A model generated the notes under the pieces. That model was not told the DNA's origin. It did no database searches and saw only the letters and a list, made by a program, of their open reading frames with translations. A stretch of 42,582 nt of DNA from a virus: positions 1 through 42,582 of IMG/VR virus record IMGVR_UViG_3300044616_000931; one strand, written 5' to 3'. Below, in pieces: positions 5,986 through 16,998 of the stretch; the stretch's first letter is position 1, and each line of letters opens with the position of its first letter. The translations under genes and the position numbers were made by a program.

Positions 5986-6456
5986 ATGATCATATTTAAA
6001 GTTGAAAACATATCCAACGGAAAAAACTATATAGGATATGCAATTAATGATAATCCTAATAACTTAGGATCTGGTAAATACATAAAGCGTGCAGTTAAAG
6101 ACTTTGGTACTACTTCCTTTAAGAGAGAAGTATTAGAAACATTTGATGCAGATGAATCTTTAGGTGTTGTTATGGATCGTGTTGAGTATTGGATTAAGAA
6201 ATTCAAATCGGATAATCCTAAATTTGGATATAACGAAAGCGTACAAGAAATGATTCCTCAAAAGAAAAAGTTAACTAAAAAGTTACAAGTTCTCTTAACA
6301 CCTGAGGATGAAGATAACCTAAATACTATTATCATTCAAAAATCAATGGAAACTGGTATTAAGCCTATTCCAATTTCAAGATATGTTAGAAATATCATAG
6401 TTGAACATATCGTAGAAGAAACATCACCAGAAAAACAATTAATAAAAACAAAATAA
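5986..6456 (+). CDS. GIY-YIG-like nuclease domain protein with DNA-binding-like tail
   Basis: This 156-aa protein starts with a GIY-YIG-type fold: IIFKVENISNGKNYIGYA (the YIG is present; the GIY strand is degenerate as FKV), then GSGKYIKRAVKDFG and SFKREVLE, which match the conserved Arg and following strand of phage seg-type enzymes. A Glu in VEYWIKKF fits the catalytic Glu. The tail after residue 90 (KKLQVLLTPEDEDNLN ... ISRYVRNIIVEHI) resembles a ribbon-helix-helix DNA-binding unit. It sits between tube and hub genes, where free-standing homing endonucleases often invade T4-like genomes. Activity is uncertain because GIY is altered. Confidence 0.6.
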   Translation: MIIFKVENISNGKNYIGYAINDNPNNLGSGKYIKRAVKDFGTTSFKREVLETFDADESLGVVMDRVEYWIKKFKSDNPKFGYNESVQEMIPQKKKLTKKLQVLLTPEDEDNLNTIIIQKSMETGIKPIPISRYVRNIIVEHIVEETSPEKQLIKTK

Positions 6457-13570: not shown

Positions 13571-13951
13571 GGGGGTGACCTGGTTTTGACGGTTAAGCTG
13601 AAAATAGGTTACTGATGCAAGCAGGGTTAGATGGAAACCCTTAAACACCTATCACACAATAAAAGGCGAAGAGAAATCTTCATTCACCTGGGAAGACGCA
13701 ATGTCTTTCATTGGTGCTGATTACGCAGTAGCTGCCTAGTCAGTCCCGCACTCATCGTGGGGTATTAAAAAGAATGAGAACCTTGAGTACTTCTCGCTGA
13801 CTCTCTAAATAAGAGTGGGGAACATTGGTCCAATTAACGATGTTGAAGAACTAATTGGTATTTTGTTTGTTTAGAAAAATAAACTAAGCTTGTGAACGAA
13901 GGATTTAGGTTCCTTAGTCGGACATGGGTTCGAATCCCATCACCTCCACCA
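13571..13951 (+). ncRNA. ssrA: tmRNA (ssrA)
   Basis: This 381-nt RNA has a tRNA-like end. The 5' GGGGGTG pairs with 3' CACCTCC as a 7-bp acceptor stem. A canonical TTCGAAT T-loop sits in a GTGGG-type T-arm (GGACATGGGTTCGAATCCCA region), and the 3' ACCA is encoded. The 5' GGTTTTGACGG block is a tmRNA signature. The tag frame runs 13665-13739: resume codon GGC, then GAA GAG AAA, ending TAC GCA GTA GCT GCC TAG, so the peptide begins GEEK and ends DYAVAA. That is 24 residues, clearly longer than the roughly 9-residue Bacteroidota tags. Downstream CCCGC/GTGGGG and CTCT/AGAG pairings fit pseudoknots. It rescues ribosomes stalled on broken mRNA. Confidence 0.95.
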
Positions 13952-13955
13952 AAAA

Positions 13956-14010
13956 AGGATGCTTACAGCAAACTAGGACTAGATTTGTAAACTATACTCC
14001 TCAGCATCCT
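13956..14010 (+). ncRNA. 55-nt structured RNA element A
   Basis: The ends form a perfect 7-bp stem (AGGATGC 13956-13962 with GCATCCT 14004-14010). The 5' strand is followed by TACAGCAAACT and the 3' strand by GTA. The same layout, same total length and same flanking words recur in element B (14842-14896), while the interior differs. It lies 5 nt upstream of tRNA-Gly. No tRNA D, anticodon or T arm is present. It is not a family I can name. Confidence 0.5.
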
Positions 14011-14015
14011 GTAAT

Positions 14016-14088
14016 GCGGAAGTAGCTCAGTTGGTAGAGCACAACCTTGCCAAGGTTGGGGTCGCGAGTTCGAATCTCGTCTTCCGCT
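14016..14088 (+). tRNA. tRNA-Gly(GCC)
   Basis: A standard cloverleaf: acceptor GCGGAAG/CTTCCGC, D-arm GCTC/GAGC, anticodon loop TTGCCAA and T-loop TTCGAAT. CCA is not encoded. It is separated from the main array by 325 bp. Confidence 0.95.
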
Positions 14089-14101
14089 CAAAAAGAAATT
14101 T

Positions 14102-14134
14102 TACTCACATAGTGAAACAAACATAGTGTGAGTA
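14102..14134 (+). other. Hairpin after tRNA-Gly
   Basis: An 8-bp stem TACTCACA/TGTGAGTA encloses a 17-nt loop. No U-tract follows, so it may be an RNA 3' end or processing signal rather than an intrinsic terminator. Confidence 0.4.
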
Positions 14135-14163
14135 TATATAAACAGTAAATAAAAACAAATTCA

Positions 14164-14259
14164 ATGCAACTGCACGGATGTACATATTGGATACTTAGTA
14201 ATGTGGAGAAGAATTTTCCACAGGCGGATTCAATTACACACATTCCAGGCAGGAGCTAA
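14164..14259 (+). CDS. Possible small protein, 31 aa
   Basis: A short frame starts behind an A-rich leader like those of other genes here (ATAAAAACAAATTCA then ATG) and ends just before a strong terminator at 14286. The peptide starts MQLHGCTYWIL and has no recognised relative. It could instead be part of a small non-coding transcript that runs to the same terminator. Confidence 0.3.
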   Translation: MQLHGCTYWILSNVEKNFPQADSITHIPGRS

Positions 14260-14285
14260 TGAAATAAACTCATCTAATAATTTAG

Positions 14286-14323
14286 GCCTCCTGGAAAATA
14301 AAAAATTCCAGGAGGCTTTTTTT
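14286..14323 (+). terminator. Strong intrinsic terminator between tmRNA region and tRNA array
   Basis: A perfect 11-bp stem GCCTCCTGGAA/TTCCAGGAGGC with a 9-nt A/T loop is followed by seven T. It insulates the array promoter at 14333. Confidence 0.92.
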
Positions 14324-14332
14324 ATGGGTCTC

Positions 14333-14363
14333 TTTCAGAAAAAGATTGAGTGGTTTATATTTG
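14333..14363 (+). promoter_or_regulatory. Promoter of the tRNA array (TTTC-N19-TATATTTG)
   Basis: TTTC at 14333-14336 and TATATTTG at 14356-14363 are spaced by 19 bp, as in the two other copies of this promoter type. The -7 box fits the Bacteroidota consensus TAnnTTTG. It lies just after a terminator and before the boxA-like site and first array tRNA. Confidence 0.65.
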
Positions 14364-14386
14364 TTTAGATTAAGAATAACAAATTT

Positions 14387-14402
14387 GTTCTTTGACATAT
14401 TG
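14387..14402 (+). promoter_or_regulatory. boxA-like antitermination sequence before the tRNA array
   Basis: GTTCTTTGACATATTG lies in the leader, about 24 nt after the -7 box and 11 nt before tRNA-Ser. It resembles rRNA-operon boxA and the copy before the tmRNA. Confidence 0.5.
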
Positions 14403-14413
14403 GTACCGATTTA

Positions 14414-14498
14414 GGAAGATTGGCAGAGTGGTCGATCGCGGCAGTCTTGAAAACTGTTGAACTGCAAGGTTCCGTAGGTTCGAATCCTACATCTTCCG
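14414..14498 (+). tRNA. tRNA-Ser(TGA)
   Basis: Acceptor GGAAGAT/ATCTTCC; loop CTTGAAA reads TGA; a long class II variable arm supports Ser. CCA is not encoded. It is the first tRNA of the array. Confidence 0.93.
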
Positions 14499-14508
14499 CA
14501 AATCAAAT

Positions 14509-14579
14509 TGCCCTCTCGTCTAATGGCAGGACATGTGGTTTTGGTCCACAGTGTGGAGGTTCGAATCCTTCGGGGGCAA
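14509..14579 (+). tRNA. tRNA-Gln(TTG)
   Basis: Acceptor TGCCCTC/GGGGGCA with one G-T pair; anticodon loop TTTTGGT reads TTG; T-loop TTCGAAT. CCA is not encoded. Confidence 0.9.
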
Positions 14580-14581
14580 CT

Positions 14582-14761
14582 AATGAAACCCACAGAAGTC
14601 CGATTAGCGCGGATGAAAGGAACCTTGGCTCTCAAAGGATCGCAACCTTTTAAAGAGAGTTTGAATGTCCCAAGGTACTCTGTTCAGATTCCTGCTCTGC
14701 TGTGCACGGCAACAGGTTATGGGGAACAAACCATAAGTAAAACTCGGAGATAGGTTTCATT
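14582..14761 (+). ncRNA. 180-nt structured RNA inside the tRNA array
   Basis: The region between tRNA-Gln and tRNA-Pro has no gene but is bounded by a perfect 9-bp pairing AATGAAACC (14582-14590)/GGTTTCATT (14753-14761). Inside are nested stems: ACCTTGG/CCAAGGT enclosing CTCT/AGAG and AAAGG/CCTTT, TCCG/CGGA near the 5' side, CCTG/CAGG, and TATGG/CCATA near the 3' side. It does not show the signatures of RNase P, 6S or tmRNA that I know. A processed stable RNA, comparable to the extra RNAs in the T4 tRNA operon, is the best guess. Confidence 0.5.
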
Positions 14762-14765
14762 TTAA

Positions 14766-14838
14766 CGGGGAGTAGATCAGTTGGTAGATCGGGTGGTTTG
14801 GGACCATCAGGCCGCAGGTTCGAGTCCTGTCTCCCCGA
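14766..14838 (+). tRNA. tRNA-Pro(TGG)
   Basis: Acceptor CGGGGAG/CTCCCCG; anticodon loop TTTGGGA reads TGG; T-loop TTCGAGT. The D-stem reads GATC rather than GCTC. Confidence 0.93.
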
Positions 14839-14841
14839 CTA

Positions 14842-14896
14842 AGGATGCATACAGCAAACTTTACTAAACAGCAAATTTGGAAAAAAGAAGCATCCT
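14842..14896 (+). ncRNA. 55-nt structured RNA element B
   Basis: A second copy of the element at 13956: AGGATGC (14842-14848) pairs with GCATCCT (14890-14896), again followed inside by TACAGCAAACT and outside by GTA, total 55 nt. The central 25 nt differ and are A-rich. It ends 7 nt before tRNA-Thr. Confidence 0.5.
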
Positions 14897-14903
14897 GTAT
14901 TTT

Positions 14904-14976
14904 GCCTCTGTAGCTCAGTTGGTAGAGCTACTGATTTGTAATCAGTGGGTCGCAGGTTCGAATCCTGTCGGAGGCT
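14904..14976 (+). tRNA. tRNA-Thr(TGT)
   Basis: Acceptor GCCTCTG/CGGAGGC; loop TTTGTAA reads TGT; canonical D- and T-arms. Confidence 0.95.
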
Positions 14977-14981
14977 CAAAT

Positions 14982-15053
14982 GGTCTGTTCGTCTAACGGT
15001 TAGGACATCACCCTTTCACGGTGGTGATACGGGTTCGATTCCCGTACAGACTA
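14982..15053 (+). tRNA. tRNA-Glu(TTC)
   Basis: Acceptor GGTCTGT/ACAGACT; TCGTCTAACGG D-arm typical of Glu; loop CTTTCAC reads TTC; T-loop TTCGATT. Confidence 0.95.
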
Positions 15054-15059
15054 CAACAT

Positions 15060-15134
15060 TGCGGGGTGGACTGGAGATGGTTCCAGCTCAGTCTCATAAG
15101 CTGAATCACATGGGTTCGATTCCCATTCCCGCAA
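15060..15134 (+). tRNA. tRNA with CAT anticodon (Met, initiator or Ile2), odd D-arm
   Basis: Acceptor TGCGGGG/TCCCGCA and 3' A resemble initiator tRNA, but T1-A72 is paired and the anticodon stem TCAGT/GCTGA lacks the three G-C pairs of initiators. Loop CTCATAA reads CAT. The D-stem appears shifted (CTGG/CCAG with loop AGATGGTT) after a 4-nt linker. The amino acid cannot be settled by eye. Confidence 0.75.
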
Positions 15135-15138
15135 CTAA

Positions 15139-15212
15139 GGCTCGTTAGTAGAGATGGTTACAATGTCGCCCTGTCACGGCGAAGGTCACGGGTTCGAGTC
15201 CCGTACGAGCCG
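15139..15212 (+). tRNA. tRNA-Asp(GTC)
   Basis: Acceptor GGCTCGT/ACGAGCC; loop CTGTCAC reads GTC. The D-loop holds GAGATGGTT, the same word as in the preceding CAT tRNA, with only a short GTA/TAC stem. Confidence 0.9.
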
Positions 15213-15216
15213 CAAA

Positions 15217-15286
15217 AAATGCCGAGGTTTAATATTGACCTAAAGTAATGTGTACAGTTACATCGTAGGAAGGCTACCTACATCTT
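15217..15286 (+). other. Spacer with several small hairpins
   Basis: A spacer of about 70 nt before tRNA-Ala holds AGGT/ACCT and GTAGG/CCTAC hairpins. Its CCGAGGT start could pair with ATCTTGG at the tRNA-Ala boundary (including G-U pairs), but that pairing would compete with the tRNA 5' end. It may be a processed RNA or plain spacer. Confidence 0.3.
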
Positions 15287-15363
15287 GGGGGTATAGCTCA
15301 GTTGGCTAGAGCATCTGCCTTGCACGCAGAGGGTCGTGGGTTCGAGTCCCTCTATCTCCACCA
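15287..15363 (+). tRNA. tRNA-Ala(TGC)
   Basis: Acceptor GGGGGTA/TATCTCC; loop CTTGCAC reads TGC; T-stem GTGGG/CCCTC has one mismatch. This is the only tRNA of the array with an encoded CCA (15361-15363). Confidence 0.92.
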
Positions 15364-15364
15364 A

Positions 15365-15437
15365 GATCTCGTAGCTCAGTTGGTAGAGCAATACACTTTT
15401 AATGTATGGGCCGCGCGTTCGAGCCGCGCCGGGATCA
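15365..15437 (+). tRNA. tRNA-Lys(TTT)
   Basis: Acceptor GATCTCG/CGGGATC; loop CTTTTAA reads TTT; T-stem GCGCG/CGCGC. Confidence 0.94.
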
Positions 15438-15444
15438 CAAAAAA

Positions 15445-15508
15445 ATCGCTAATGGAAACATTGAAGGTGTACAATGCTAGCAACACCGCAGGTTAAGCGA
15501 TATCCTGC
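15445..15508 (+). ncRNA. 64-nt pseudoknot-like RNA element C
   Basis: Closing stem ATCGCT (15445-15450)/AGCGAT (15496-15501). Inside are an AATG-GAAA-CATT tetraloop hairpin and a GGTGT/ACACC hairpin. GCAGG (15488-15492), inside the stem, can pair with CCTGC (15504-15508) outside it, forming a pseudoknot. The 3' end ATCCTGCA resembles the ATCCTGTA end of elements A and B. It lies 5 nt before tRNA-Leu. Confidence 0.45.
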
Positions 15509-15513
15509 AATTT

Positions 15514-15594
15514 GCCGAAGTGGTGGAATGGTATACACGCTGGTCTTAGGAACCAGTGCTTCACGGCTTAAGGGTTCGAGTCCCTTCTTCGGTA
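15514..15594 (+). tRNA. tRNA-Leu(TAG)
   Basis: Acceptor GCCGAAG/CTTCGGT; loop CTTAGGA reads TAG; a class II variable arm is present. It would decode CTA (CTN), not the common TTA codons of this phage. Confidence 0.93.
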
Positions 15595-15598
15595 CTAT

Positions 15599-15671
15599 GC
15601 ATCCTTAGCTCAGTTGGTAGAGCGCTTGCCTTACATGCAAGATGTCGGAGGTTCAAATCCTTCAGGATGTA
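15599..15671 (+). tRNA. tRNA-Val(TAC)
   Basis: Acceptor GCATCCT/AGGATGT with a terminal G-T pair; loop CTTACAT reads TAC; T-loop TTCAAAT. Confidence 0.94.
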
Positions 15672-15677
15672 CAAAAT

Positions 15678-15760
15678 TGGAAGGTGGGTGAGTGGTTAAA
15701 ACCGGCAGACTGTAACTCTGCTCCCTTACGGGTACGGCGGTTCGAATCCGTCCCTTCCAA
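15678..15760 (+). tRNA. tRNA-Tyr(GTA)
   Basis: Acceptor TGGAAGG/CCTTCCA; anticodon stem GCAGA/TCTGC with loop CTGTAAC reads GTA; a long variable arm (CCC/GGG) as expected for bacterial Tyr. Confidence 0.93.
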
Positions 15761-15765
15761 CATTT

Positions 15766-15839
15766 GGACCTTTAGCTCAGTCGGTTAGAGCATCGGACTC
15801 ATAATCCGCAGGTCGTAGGTTCGAGCCCTACAAGGTCCA
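15766..15839 (+). tRNA. tRNA-Met(CAT), elongator type
   Basis: Acceptor GGACCTT/AAGGTCC; D-stem GCTC/GAGC; loop CTCATAA reads CAT; canonical T-arm. An Ile2 identity after lysidine modification cannot be excluded. Confidence 0.88.
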
Positions 15840-15844
15840 CATTT

Positions 15845-15917
15845 AGTCGATTAGTTCAATTGGATAGAACACTTGACTACGGATCAAGAGATAAGGGTTC
15901 GAGTCCTTTATTGACTA
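15845..15917 (+). tRNA. tRNA-Arg(ACG)
   Basis: Acceptor AGTCGAT/ATTGACT; loop CTACGGA reads ACG, which normally needs A34-to-inosine editing to read CGN codons. The AGA codon favoured in these genes is not served. Confidence 0.93.
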
Positions 15918-15922
15918 CTAAA

Positions 15923-15995
15923 GGTGATGTAGCTCAGTTGGTAGAGCAAAGGACTGAAAATCCTTGTGTCGGCGGTTCGATTCCGTCTATCACCA
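15923..15995 (+). tRNA. tRNA-Phe(GAA)
   Basis: Acceptor GGTGATG/TATCACC; anticodon stem AAGGA/TCCTT with loop CTGAAAA reads GAA. Confidence 0.95.
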
Positions 15996-16006
15996 CAAAG
16001 TAATAT

Positions 16007-16078
16007 TCCTCGGTAGCTCAGAGGCAGAGCACATGACTGTTAATCATGGGGTCGGGATATCGTAATTCCCCCGGGGAG
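16007..16078 (+). tRNA. tRNA-Asn(GTT) with degenerate T-arm
   Basis: Acceptor TCCTCGG/CCGGGGA, D-arm and anticodon arm (loop CTGTTAA, reads GTT) are normal. The T-arm is GGGAT-ATCGTAA-TTCCC: the invariant G53-C61 pair is T-T, and T54 and A58 are replaced. It may be a damaged gene or one with an unusual elbow. Confidence 0.8.
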
Positions 16079-16085
16079 CAAATAT

Positions 16086-16159
16086 TGGAATGTAGCTCAG
16101 TTGGTTAGAGCACTTGCCTGATACGCATGTGGCCGGCGGTTCGAGTCCGCCCATTCCAA
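16086..16159 (+). tRNA. tRNA-Ile(GAT)
   Basis: Acceptor TGGAATG/CATTCCA; loop CTGATAC reads GAT; one T-T mismatch in the anticodon stem (CTTGC/GCATG). Confidence 0.9.
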
Positions 16160-16164
16160 CATAT

Positions 16165-16238
16165 GGTGGTCGTAGCTCAGTAGGTAGAGCACTGGATTGT
16201 GGTTCCAGTCGTCGCCGGTTCGATCCCGGTCGATCACC
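16165..16238 (+). tRNA. tRNA-His(GTG)
   Basis: Acceptor GTGGTCG/CGATCAC preceded by the His-specific extra G-1 (16165) facing C73; loop TTGTGGT reads GTG. Confidence 0.94.
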
Positions 16239-16243
16239 CAAAA

Positions 16244-16314
16244 GGCACCGTGTCCGAGTGGTTAGGCGAAGGTCTGCAAAACCTTTTACACTGGTTCGAA
16301 TCCAGTCAGTGCCT
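16244..16314 (+). tRNA. tRNA-Cys(GCA)
   Basis: Acceptor GGCACCG/CAGTGCC with one C-A mismatch; loop CTGCAAA reads GCA; canonical T-loop. Confidence 0.92.
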
Positions 16315-16323
16315 CTAACATAT

Positions 16324-16396
16324 ACGTCTGTAGCTCAGTTGGTAGAGCACTGGTCTCCAAAACCAGGTGTCGGTGGTTCGAGCCCATCCAGTCGTG
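16324..16396 (+). tRNA. tRNA-Trp(CCA)
   Basis: Acceptor ACGTCTG/CAGTCGT with one T-T mismatch; loop CTCCAAA reads CCA; discriminator G as expected for Trp. Confidence 0.92.
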
Positions 16397-16412
16397 CTAA
16401 TACATAAACCAA

Positions 16413-16862
16413 ATGAAAGTGTTCAGAAAGACAAATGGGGTCAAGGTAAATGTGATTGAACACACCCTTGAACAGCTAAGGAATTTTCCTTATGCATCGA
16501 TTCACATCGGTACTGATTCTCAAAATCATGGAGATGTAACGGTTTATAGTACTGTCATTGCATATCGCTTTGGAAACACTGGTGTGCACTATATTGTGCA
16601 TAGGCAAAAATTCCCAAAGATTTCTGATATGTGGACTCGTCTTTGGAAAGAAGCAGAAATGAGTATTGAAACTGCTGAATGGCTAACACAACAAATTAAT
16701 GTTAAAATCTCTATTGATATGGACTATAACGGAGATGAAGGTTTCAAATCAAATAAGATCATATCAGCTGCAAAAGGCTGGGCAAATTCATTAGGATATC
16801 CGGTTAATGTAAAGCCTAATGAACAAATTGCTACAAGGGCAGCAGACTATTGCTGTCGCTAA
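16413..16862 (+). CDS. RNase H-like protein of the YkuK/DUF458 family
   Basis: This 149-aa protein shows the DUF458 (YkuK) layout: an N-terminal helix with ASIHIGTDSQNHG, where the Asp in HIGTDSQ matches the first acidic residue of an RNase H fold. Then come VTVYSTVIAYRFGNTGVHYIVHRQKFP, a central Glu-bearing helix (WKEAEMSIETAEWL), ISIDMDYNGDEGFKSNKII with another acidic pair, and a C-terminal ATRAADYCCR. The family is a predicted nuclease, function unproven. The gene lies inside the tRNA array, between tRNA-Trp and tRNA-Ser, and its stop is only two bases before the tRNA-Ser, so it shares that transcript. A role in RNA processing or turnover is an inference from location. Confidence 0.75.
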   Translation: MKVFRKTNGVKVNVIEHTLEQLRNFPYASIHIGTDSQNHGDVTVYSTVIAYRFGNTGVHYIVHRQKFPKISDMWTRLWKEAEMSIETAEWLTQQINVKISIDMDYNGDEGFKSNKIISAAKGWANSLGYPVNVKPNEQIATRAADYCCR

Positions 16863-16863
16863 C

Positions 16864-16948
16864 GGAAGGTTACCCAAGTGGTGAAGGGGGCAGTTTGCTA
16901 AACTGTTAGGTCGGCAACGGCGCGAGGGTTCGATCCCCTCACCTTCCG
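16864..16948 (+). tRNA. tRNA-Ser(GCT)
   Basis: Acceptor GGAAGGT/ACCTTCC; loop TTGCTAA reads GCT; class II variable arm. It is the last tRNA, directly after the RNase H-like gene. Confidence 0.93.
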
Positions 16949-16998
16949 CTCTTTCAGAATGTAACTTTATGTATTATTATTAAATAAATAGTTTAGGT

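Follow-up and report, generated by a model that had tools for sequence, protein, structure and literature searches.

The window, by which we mean the whole 42,582-nucleotide stretch of DNA analysed here, is a 42.6-kb IMG/VR virus record whose gene content is that of a contractile-tailed phage, with terminase, tail sheath, T4-type topoisomerase II, thymidylate synthase, and exonuclease families represented. A homing-endonuclease-like gene (5986-6456) immediately follows the tail tube gene. On the plus strand at 13571-13951, ARAGORN calls a tmRNA (ssrA) gene in the standard order of a one-piece molecule; the arrangement that marks two-piece permuted tmRNAs, a 3' tRNA-like half placed ahead of the mRNA half, is not found. 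Rfam model RF00023 matches over model positions 1-374 (107.2 bits, E 4.4e-41), and the CCA is encoded at 13949-13951, which agrees with an earlier note that had described a complete phage tmRNA with an encoded CCA. The score is lower than those of the Bacteroidota hosts listed for the same model (107 bits vs. about 125-200). All RF00023 family characteristics examined on the sequence are present save the usual tag length, which is typical of the family and not a defining requirement. Judged from its sequence, the gene is a member of the tmRNA family, set apart by the length of its tag.

The tmRNA gene stands at the head of an array of 22 tRNA genes (14016-16949, plus strand, called by ARAGORN) that covers all 20 amino acids. 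An inverted repeat, AGGATGC ... GCATCCT, surrounds the spacer between the tmRNA and tRNA-Gly genes (13955-14011) and is possibly a processing or termination hairpin. A T4-late-type motif, TATAAATA, occurs 23 nt upstream of the tmRNA, but with five occurrences in the window vs. 7.5 expected it constitutes no evidence, and was rejected.

The same long-tag tmRNA is found in 14 phage records, the window and 13 other IMG/VR contigs, which together contain seven distinct tmRNA sequences and three peptide variants (Ser or Ala at residue 14, Ile or Val at residue 16). From their closest isolated phages, the group of large phages that carries it probably has Bacteroidota as hosts. We scored the fold on an alignment of the seven distinct sequences. 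All seven form the 57 counted pairs, which fall in nine helices, and six of these pairs, distributed across four helices, show changes on both sides. Alignment cells with two-sided changes number 17, vs. a mean of 6.3 in shuffles and at most two when pairing partners were slid. The tRNA-like domain consists of a 5' half (13571-13622, with acceptor strand G1-G7 and the 5' strand of H2) and a 3' half (13888-13951, with the 3' strand of H2, the T arm, the 3' acceptor strand, and the CCA). Its H2 pairs and acceptor pairs, including the alanine identity pair G3.U70, which is GU in every case, are kept in all seven sequences.

Between these halves, pseudoknot 1 (13623-13653) has a first stem at 13623-13628/13636-13641 and a second, with one bulge, at 13630-13634/13648-13653; all pairs are kept, and at 13626/13638 a G-C pair is replaced by A-U. 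Helix 5 (13718-13742), ten pairs of which are kept in all sequences, encloses the last tag codons and the stop. Its double change, A-U to U-A at 13727/13733, turns one alanine codon from GCA into GCT and a second from GCT into GCA; because both changes are synonymous, pairing and peptide are both kept. Pseudoknot 2 (13744-13778; stems 13744-13749/13757-13762 and 13751-13755/13774-13778) has a C-G to U-A change at 13746/13760, and a hairpin immediately 5' of the 3' half of the tRNA-like domain (13865-13884), paired in all sequences, shows three double changes. Pseudoknot 4 (13821-13858; 13821-13825/13840-13844 and 13830-13836/13852-13858) was read by eye from the alignment and lies outside the pairs counted by the tool; its sequence varies among the variants, while its pairing can be drawn in each. 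The proposal that this tmRNA is a non-functional relic or an assembly artefact has nothing in its favor beyond the unusual tag, and is barely credible for a molecule with an intact acceptor stem and CCA that recurs as seven distinct sequences in 14 records with compensatory changes in four helices.

The tag frame occupies 13665-13739 on the plus strand, nucleotides 95-169 of the tmRNA gene according to ARAGORN. It opens with the resume codon GGC at 13665 and comprises 24 codons, GEEKSSFTWEDAMSFIGADYAVAA, followed by a TAG stop. The frame, the 24-residue length, and the degron-like end are thus as the earlier note had read them. Pseudoknot 1 is separated from codon 1 by an 11-nt linker (13654-13664) that ends in AAUAAAA, with U(-5) at 13660 and A(-4) at 13661. 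The E. coli linker has the same length, and in that species the 11 nt after pseudoknot 1, and A(-4) above all, determine which codon is the resume codon; replacement of A(-4) by C or U abolishes activity in a KanR assay (PMC2481249). All 107 Bacteroidota tmRNAs sampled have A(-4), and 93 have U(-5). Within the tag frame of the window, the U(-5)A(-4) pair precedes codon 1 and codon 24, the last, only. The 11-nt linker after pseudoknot 1 and the placement of U(-5)A(-4) together make the assignment of the resume codon to codon 1 secure, against the possibility, allowed for in the earlier note, that translation resumes elsewhere in the frame.

The most specific form of that possibility is a short tag, GADYAVAA, eight residues long and starting at codon 17, with the preceding 48 nt serving as RNA structure ahead of a later resume codon. 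The last eight residues do, taken alone, resemble a normal tag beginning with Gly, and a fold of two hairpins can be drawn for the 48 nt. However, codon 17 has C at -4 in place of the base that is invariant in the Bacteroidota sample and essential in E. coli (PMC2481249), it lies 59 nt after pseudoknot 1 rather than 11, and in variant L006 the predicted stability of the hairpins does not exceed that of shuffled sequences (z 0.05). We consider the short tag very improbable, and a real 24-residue tag very likely.

The length of this tag is far from the Bacteroidota norm, as the earlier note had stated. In our Bacteroidota sample, 111 of 115 tmRNA tags have 8-10 residues, and the other four have 14, 19, 29, and 33, the last two being probable miscalls. 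The 19-residue tag, ANNTPVYAMNSVPVYSLAA, from a Bacteroidota host tmRNA (L471 in G237), looks internally duplicated (PVYAM / PVYSL). Bacteroidota-type one-piece tmRNAs, with tags such as GENNYALAA, otherwise share with the window a tRNA-like domain with G3.U70, pseudoknot 1, an 11-nt linker with U(-5)A(-4), a tag frame that ends in helix 5, downstream pseudoknots, and the CCA. Codons 3-18 (13671-13718, plus strand), EKSSFTWEDAMSFIGA, hereafter the extension, encode the residues for which neither the short sister-phage tags nor those of the sampled Bacteroidota offer an equivalent. The earlier note had asked whether ordinary host tmRNAs might carry the same long tag; a search of 84,980 prokaryote genomes for the tag core, made with an exact degenerate pattern that diverged tags would escape, gave no match. 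The 50,697 deposited phage genomes likewise gave none, whether compared at the DNA level or through the tag peptide, and within IMG/VR the core was found in no record beyond the window and the 13 contigs. Pattern matches at L116, L118, L120, L121, L125, and L131 belong to a protein motif, not to a tmRNA, and were discarded.

Long tags as such do recur, and the one in the window is not a singular case. Viral contigs and prokaryote genomes were sampled with one search pattern at equal sample depth. Among the matches listed, tags of at least 20 residues account for 8 of 22 viral and 7 of 79 prokaryote one-piece calls (Fisher p 0.0036), a comparison to be taken as a pointer and not an estimate because near-copies occur and one contig (L575, below) is possibly bacterial; several of the seven long prokaryote tags lack a tag-like end and appear to be miscalls. 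A second viral sample contributed, again among the matches listed, further families with tags of 24-31 residues. The one-piece viral loci with long tags (L532, L563, L577, L582, L290, L295, L531, L538, L602, L614, L537, L289, L210, L621, and L239) have 24-31 residues and fall into several unrelated sequence families. Phage genes are present on the contigs of L289, L537, L532, L563, and L239; L575, which carries a DUF1501 protein, is possibly of bacterial origin. All credible long viral tags end in an alanine-rich, Clp-like sequence, for example NTELALAA, GEVAIAA, or NEYEMAA. These tags, among them AEDIMSIPTSLTRGKAVFARNTELALAA, GTSNVDRVAEGEAILASIFGEVAIAA, and GNVQLSEMTFEKAIEFVNEYEMAA, are like that of the window in their one-piece form and conserved dialanine end, but their extensions are unrelated to its extension, apart from a weak resemblance to that of L289 (T-[WF]-E-[DK]-A-[MI]-x-F-[IV]; p 0.003, uncorrected, among about 18 comparisons). 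A dedicated scan found no further member, and a single origin of the window and L289 tags was not adopted. Mapped on a tree, long tags require 11 changes, and well-supported branches force at least three of these. Taken together, the samples suggest that one-piece phage tmRNAs commonly have long tags.

The main rival to a role for the added residues is that the tmRNA works but its tag length merely drifts, since nothing but ribosome release and the final residues matters, and that the gene is kept as a spare for the host tmRNA, like the full tRNA set of the phage. The high sequence diversity of long viral tags agrees with such drift, and tRNAs for all 20 amino acids fit a general replacement of host translation RNAs. 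Against it, even the two most divergent variants disagree at no more than 4 of the 48 sites in the 16-codon extension, while their downstream pseudoknots are largely rewritten, and long tags sit on several separate branches of the tree. For this pair, with so few changes (two synonymous, two non-synonymous), the test for synonymous excess on the extension itself has little power and is not significant (p 0.19). In an unrelated long-tag family, two of three pairs show a synonymous excess within the tag (p 0.012 and 0.024), an argument for translation of long viral tags in general and against an irrelevant tag length. With the constraint on the extension weighed in, we regard drift in a spare tmRNA as a minority prospect, although it is the strongest of the alternatives.

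The phages closest to the long-tag group bear on how the tag arose. In a topoisomerase II tree, the long-tag phages are sister to L012 and L013 (support 99/99) and are nested among short-tag phages. The L012 phage has its 22 tRNAs in identical order, each 65-100% identical to its counterpart in the window array, and a tmRNA at the head of the array that is 53% identical to that of the window and encodes a nine-residue tag, GNTELAMAA; the tag of L013 is GNAELAIAA. The spread of identity among the single tRNAs, from 65 to 100%, looks as if individual genes had been swapped. Both sister tmRNAs occupy the same site as that of the window, between the DNA polymerase exonuclease gene and the topoisomerase II genes, but differ from it in having a nine-residue tag, another linker, and another pseudoknot 1. 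A larger tree built from tRNA-like domains places the short-tag sister tmRNAs in one group (97/93) that excludes the long-tag ones. Shared ancestry of the long-tag and sister tmRNAs is not rejected in an AU test (p = 0.12), and the nearest viral neighbor of the window tmRNA shifts with the rows included in the tree. Given the shared tRNA array, a tmRNA only 53% identical, and separate groups of tRNA-like domains, the simplest reading is that a whole tmRNA gene probably replaced an older short-tag tmRNA, rather than that the older tag was lengthened. The picture in the earlier note, some 16 residues inserted into a Bacteroidota-type tag, therefore stands as to the 24-residue length and is doubtful as to insertion, with a whole-gene swap the probable event.

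Searches for SmpB, ClpP, SspB, and Lon domains detected none in the long-tag contigs examined, which are possibly incomplete. Five of these contigs (G001, G002, G003, G005, and G006) do encode an AAA+ protein. In G001 (L627:3638-5662), G002 (L629:2992-5016), G003 (L626:3680-5704), and G006 (L632:5614-7638) it is a 674-residue unfoldase of ClpC type with two AAA modules. PF00004, PF07724, and PF10431 score above cut-off, and a UVR-like middle motif scores just below it (20.8 vs. 21.5 bits). Residues 537-539, IGF, align to the region of the ClpP-docking loop of ClpC. The best PDB match is ClpC, 6em8, beginning at ClpC residue 151, and no match to a Clp N domain was found in the 674 residues. This gene was read in sister records, outside the window; because the topoisomerase II and tmRNA of G001 are identical to those of the window, the phage of the window very probably has the unfoldase too. 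The suggestion in the earlier note that the phage may alter which proteases or adaptors handle tagged proteins gains plausibility from a predicted ClpC-type unfoldase in the same phages. The unfoldase occurs also in short-tag phages, and so does not track tag length: G021, a more distant relative, has the same unfoldase (L628:3491-5515) followed directly by ClpP (L628:5515-6183), and G012, a short-tag sister, has the unfoldase domain, with ClpP not detected. Other long-tag viral contigs (G263-G267), several of which are short fragments, showed no comparable unfoldase. SmpB genes (L172-L175) occur in the huge phages LR745206, LR756502, and LR756504 and in Prevotella phage Lak-B5; two of these, LR756504 and Lak-B5, additionally contain a tmRNA match above cut-off. 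SmpB in huge phages was already known (PMC7162821).

During infection, we propose, the phage tmRNA would be charged with alanine, would use the SmpB of the host, and would enter ribosomes stalled at mRNA ends, so that the stalled protein would receive alanine plus the 24 encoded residues. The tag could then act as a degradation signal in two parts, its DYAVAA end a Clp-type C-terminal degron and the extension, EKSSFTWEDAMSFIGA, a second site at which an AAA+ protease recognizes or engages the tagged protein. A candidate partner is the ClpC-type unfoldase of the same phages, acting with ClpP, most simply that of the host. The tmRNA system is known to add its tag to stalled proteins, with ends of the ALAA type read by ClpX and ClpA (PMC3985003), and a VAA-ending tag in Chlamydia is a substrate for degradation by ClpXP (PMC9601184). 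Action as a degradation tag is likely. An extension that serves as an extra protease recognition or engagement segment is a tentative reading, its chances somewhat short of even, and a partnership of the tag with phage ClpC is doubtful. Leaving the ClpC partner aside, we judge as evenly poised the combined account, in which a functional one-piece phage tmRNA retains a Clp-type end on its tag and gains from the extension a second site for recognition or engagement. A broader generalization, that phages repeatedly gain or evolve two-part degrons of 24-31 residues and thereby route rescue products to a protease they favor, here phage ClpC with host ClpP, is unlikely.

The tag might instead stabilize or relocate proteins, or occupy the Clp machines of the host, rather than mark proteins for destruction. 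Such a role would suit the hydrophobic and aromatic residues of the extension (F7, W9, M13, F15, and I16) and an AVAA end that departs from the ALAA, AMAA, and RLAA dominant in sampled hosts. It is nevertheless improbable, given that the dialanine C terminus is fully retained and that the VAA-ending Chlamydia tag is a ClpXP degron (PMC9601184). Counting against the two-part degron, the extension shows no unusual amphipathic pattern when the window tag is compared with shuffles by hydrophobic moment (p 0.67). A parallel to that degron is found in the Mollicutes, where the tag was lengthened and changed along with a switch to Lon; the Lon-degraded tags of Mesoplasma and Mycoplasma likewise have extra residues before the C terminus, but they end in AFA, in hosts that lack ClpXP (PMC3985003, PMC8138137), and the AFA end is not seen in the window tag.

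A phage tag unlike that of the host in length and make-up, constrained in one clade and with counterparts in unrelated phages, offers a direct test of why phages carry tmRNA: whether it gives rescued proteins a different fate. Phages may be altering the destruction of tagged proteins, and their long tags could serve as new protein-degradation tags. According to the available part of the 2025 tmRNA database paper, the commonest tag length is 10, and tags of two residues are discussed there (PMC11915505); no discussion of long phage tags was found in that part or in the other literature covered, a scope outside which most subscription journals fall. Phage tmRNAs have been described from mycobacteriophages and Bacillus phage G (PMC4131195), huge phages (PMC7162821), and phage Melnitz (PMC9004378), often together with tRNAs, and the portions of these accounts available to us were found to hold no discussion of long tags. 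The Melnitz tmRNA is of the permuted two-piece form (PMC9004378), unlike the one-piece molecule of the window. Xanthomonas phage X1 (L145; OQ427096, near 120982), which has a related topoisomerase II, also carries a permuted two-piece tmRNA according to ARAGORN, with the tag VAANDADYSVARYA.
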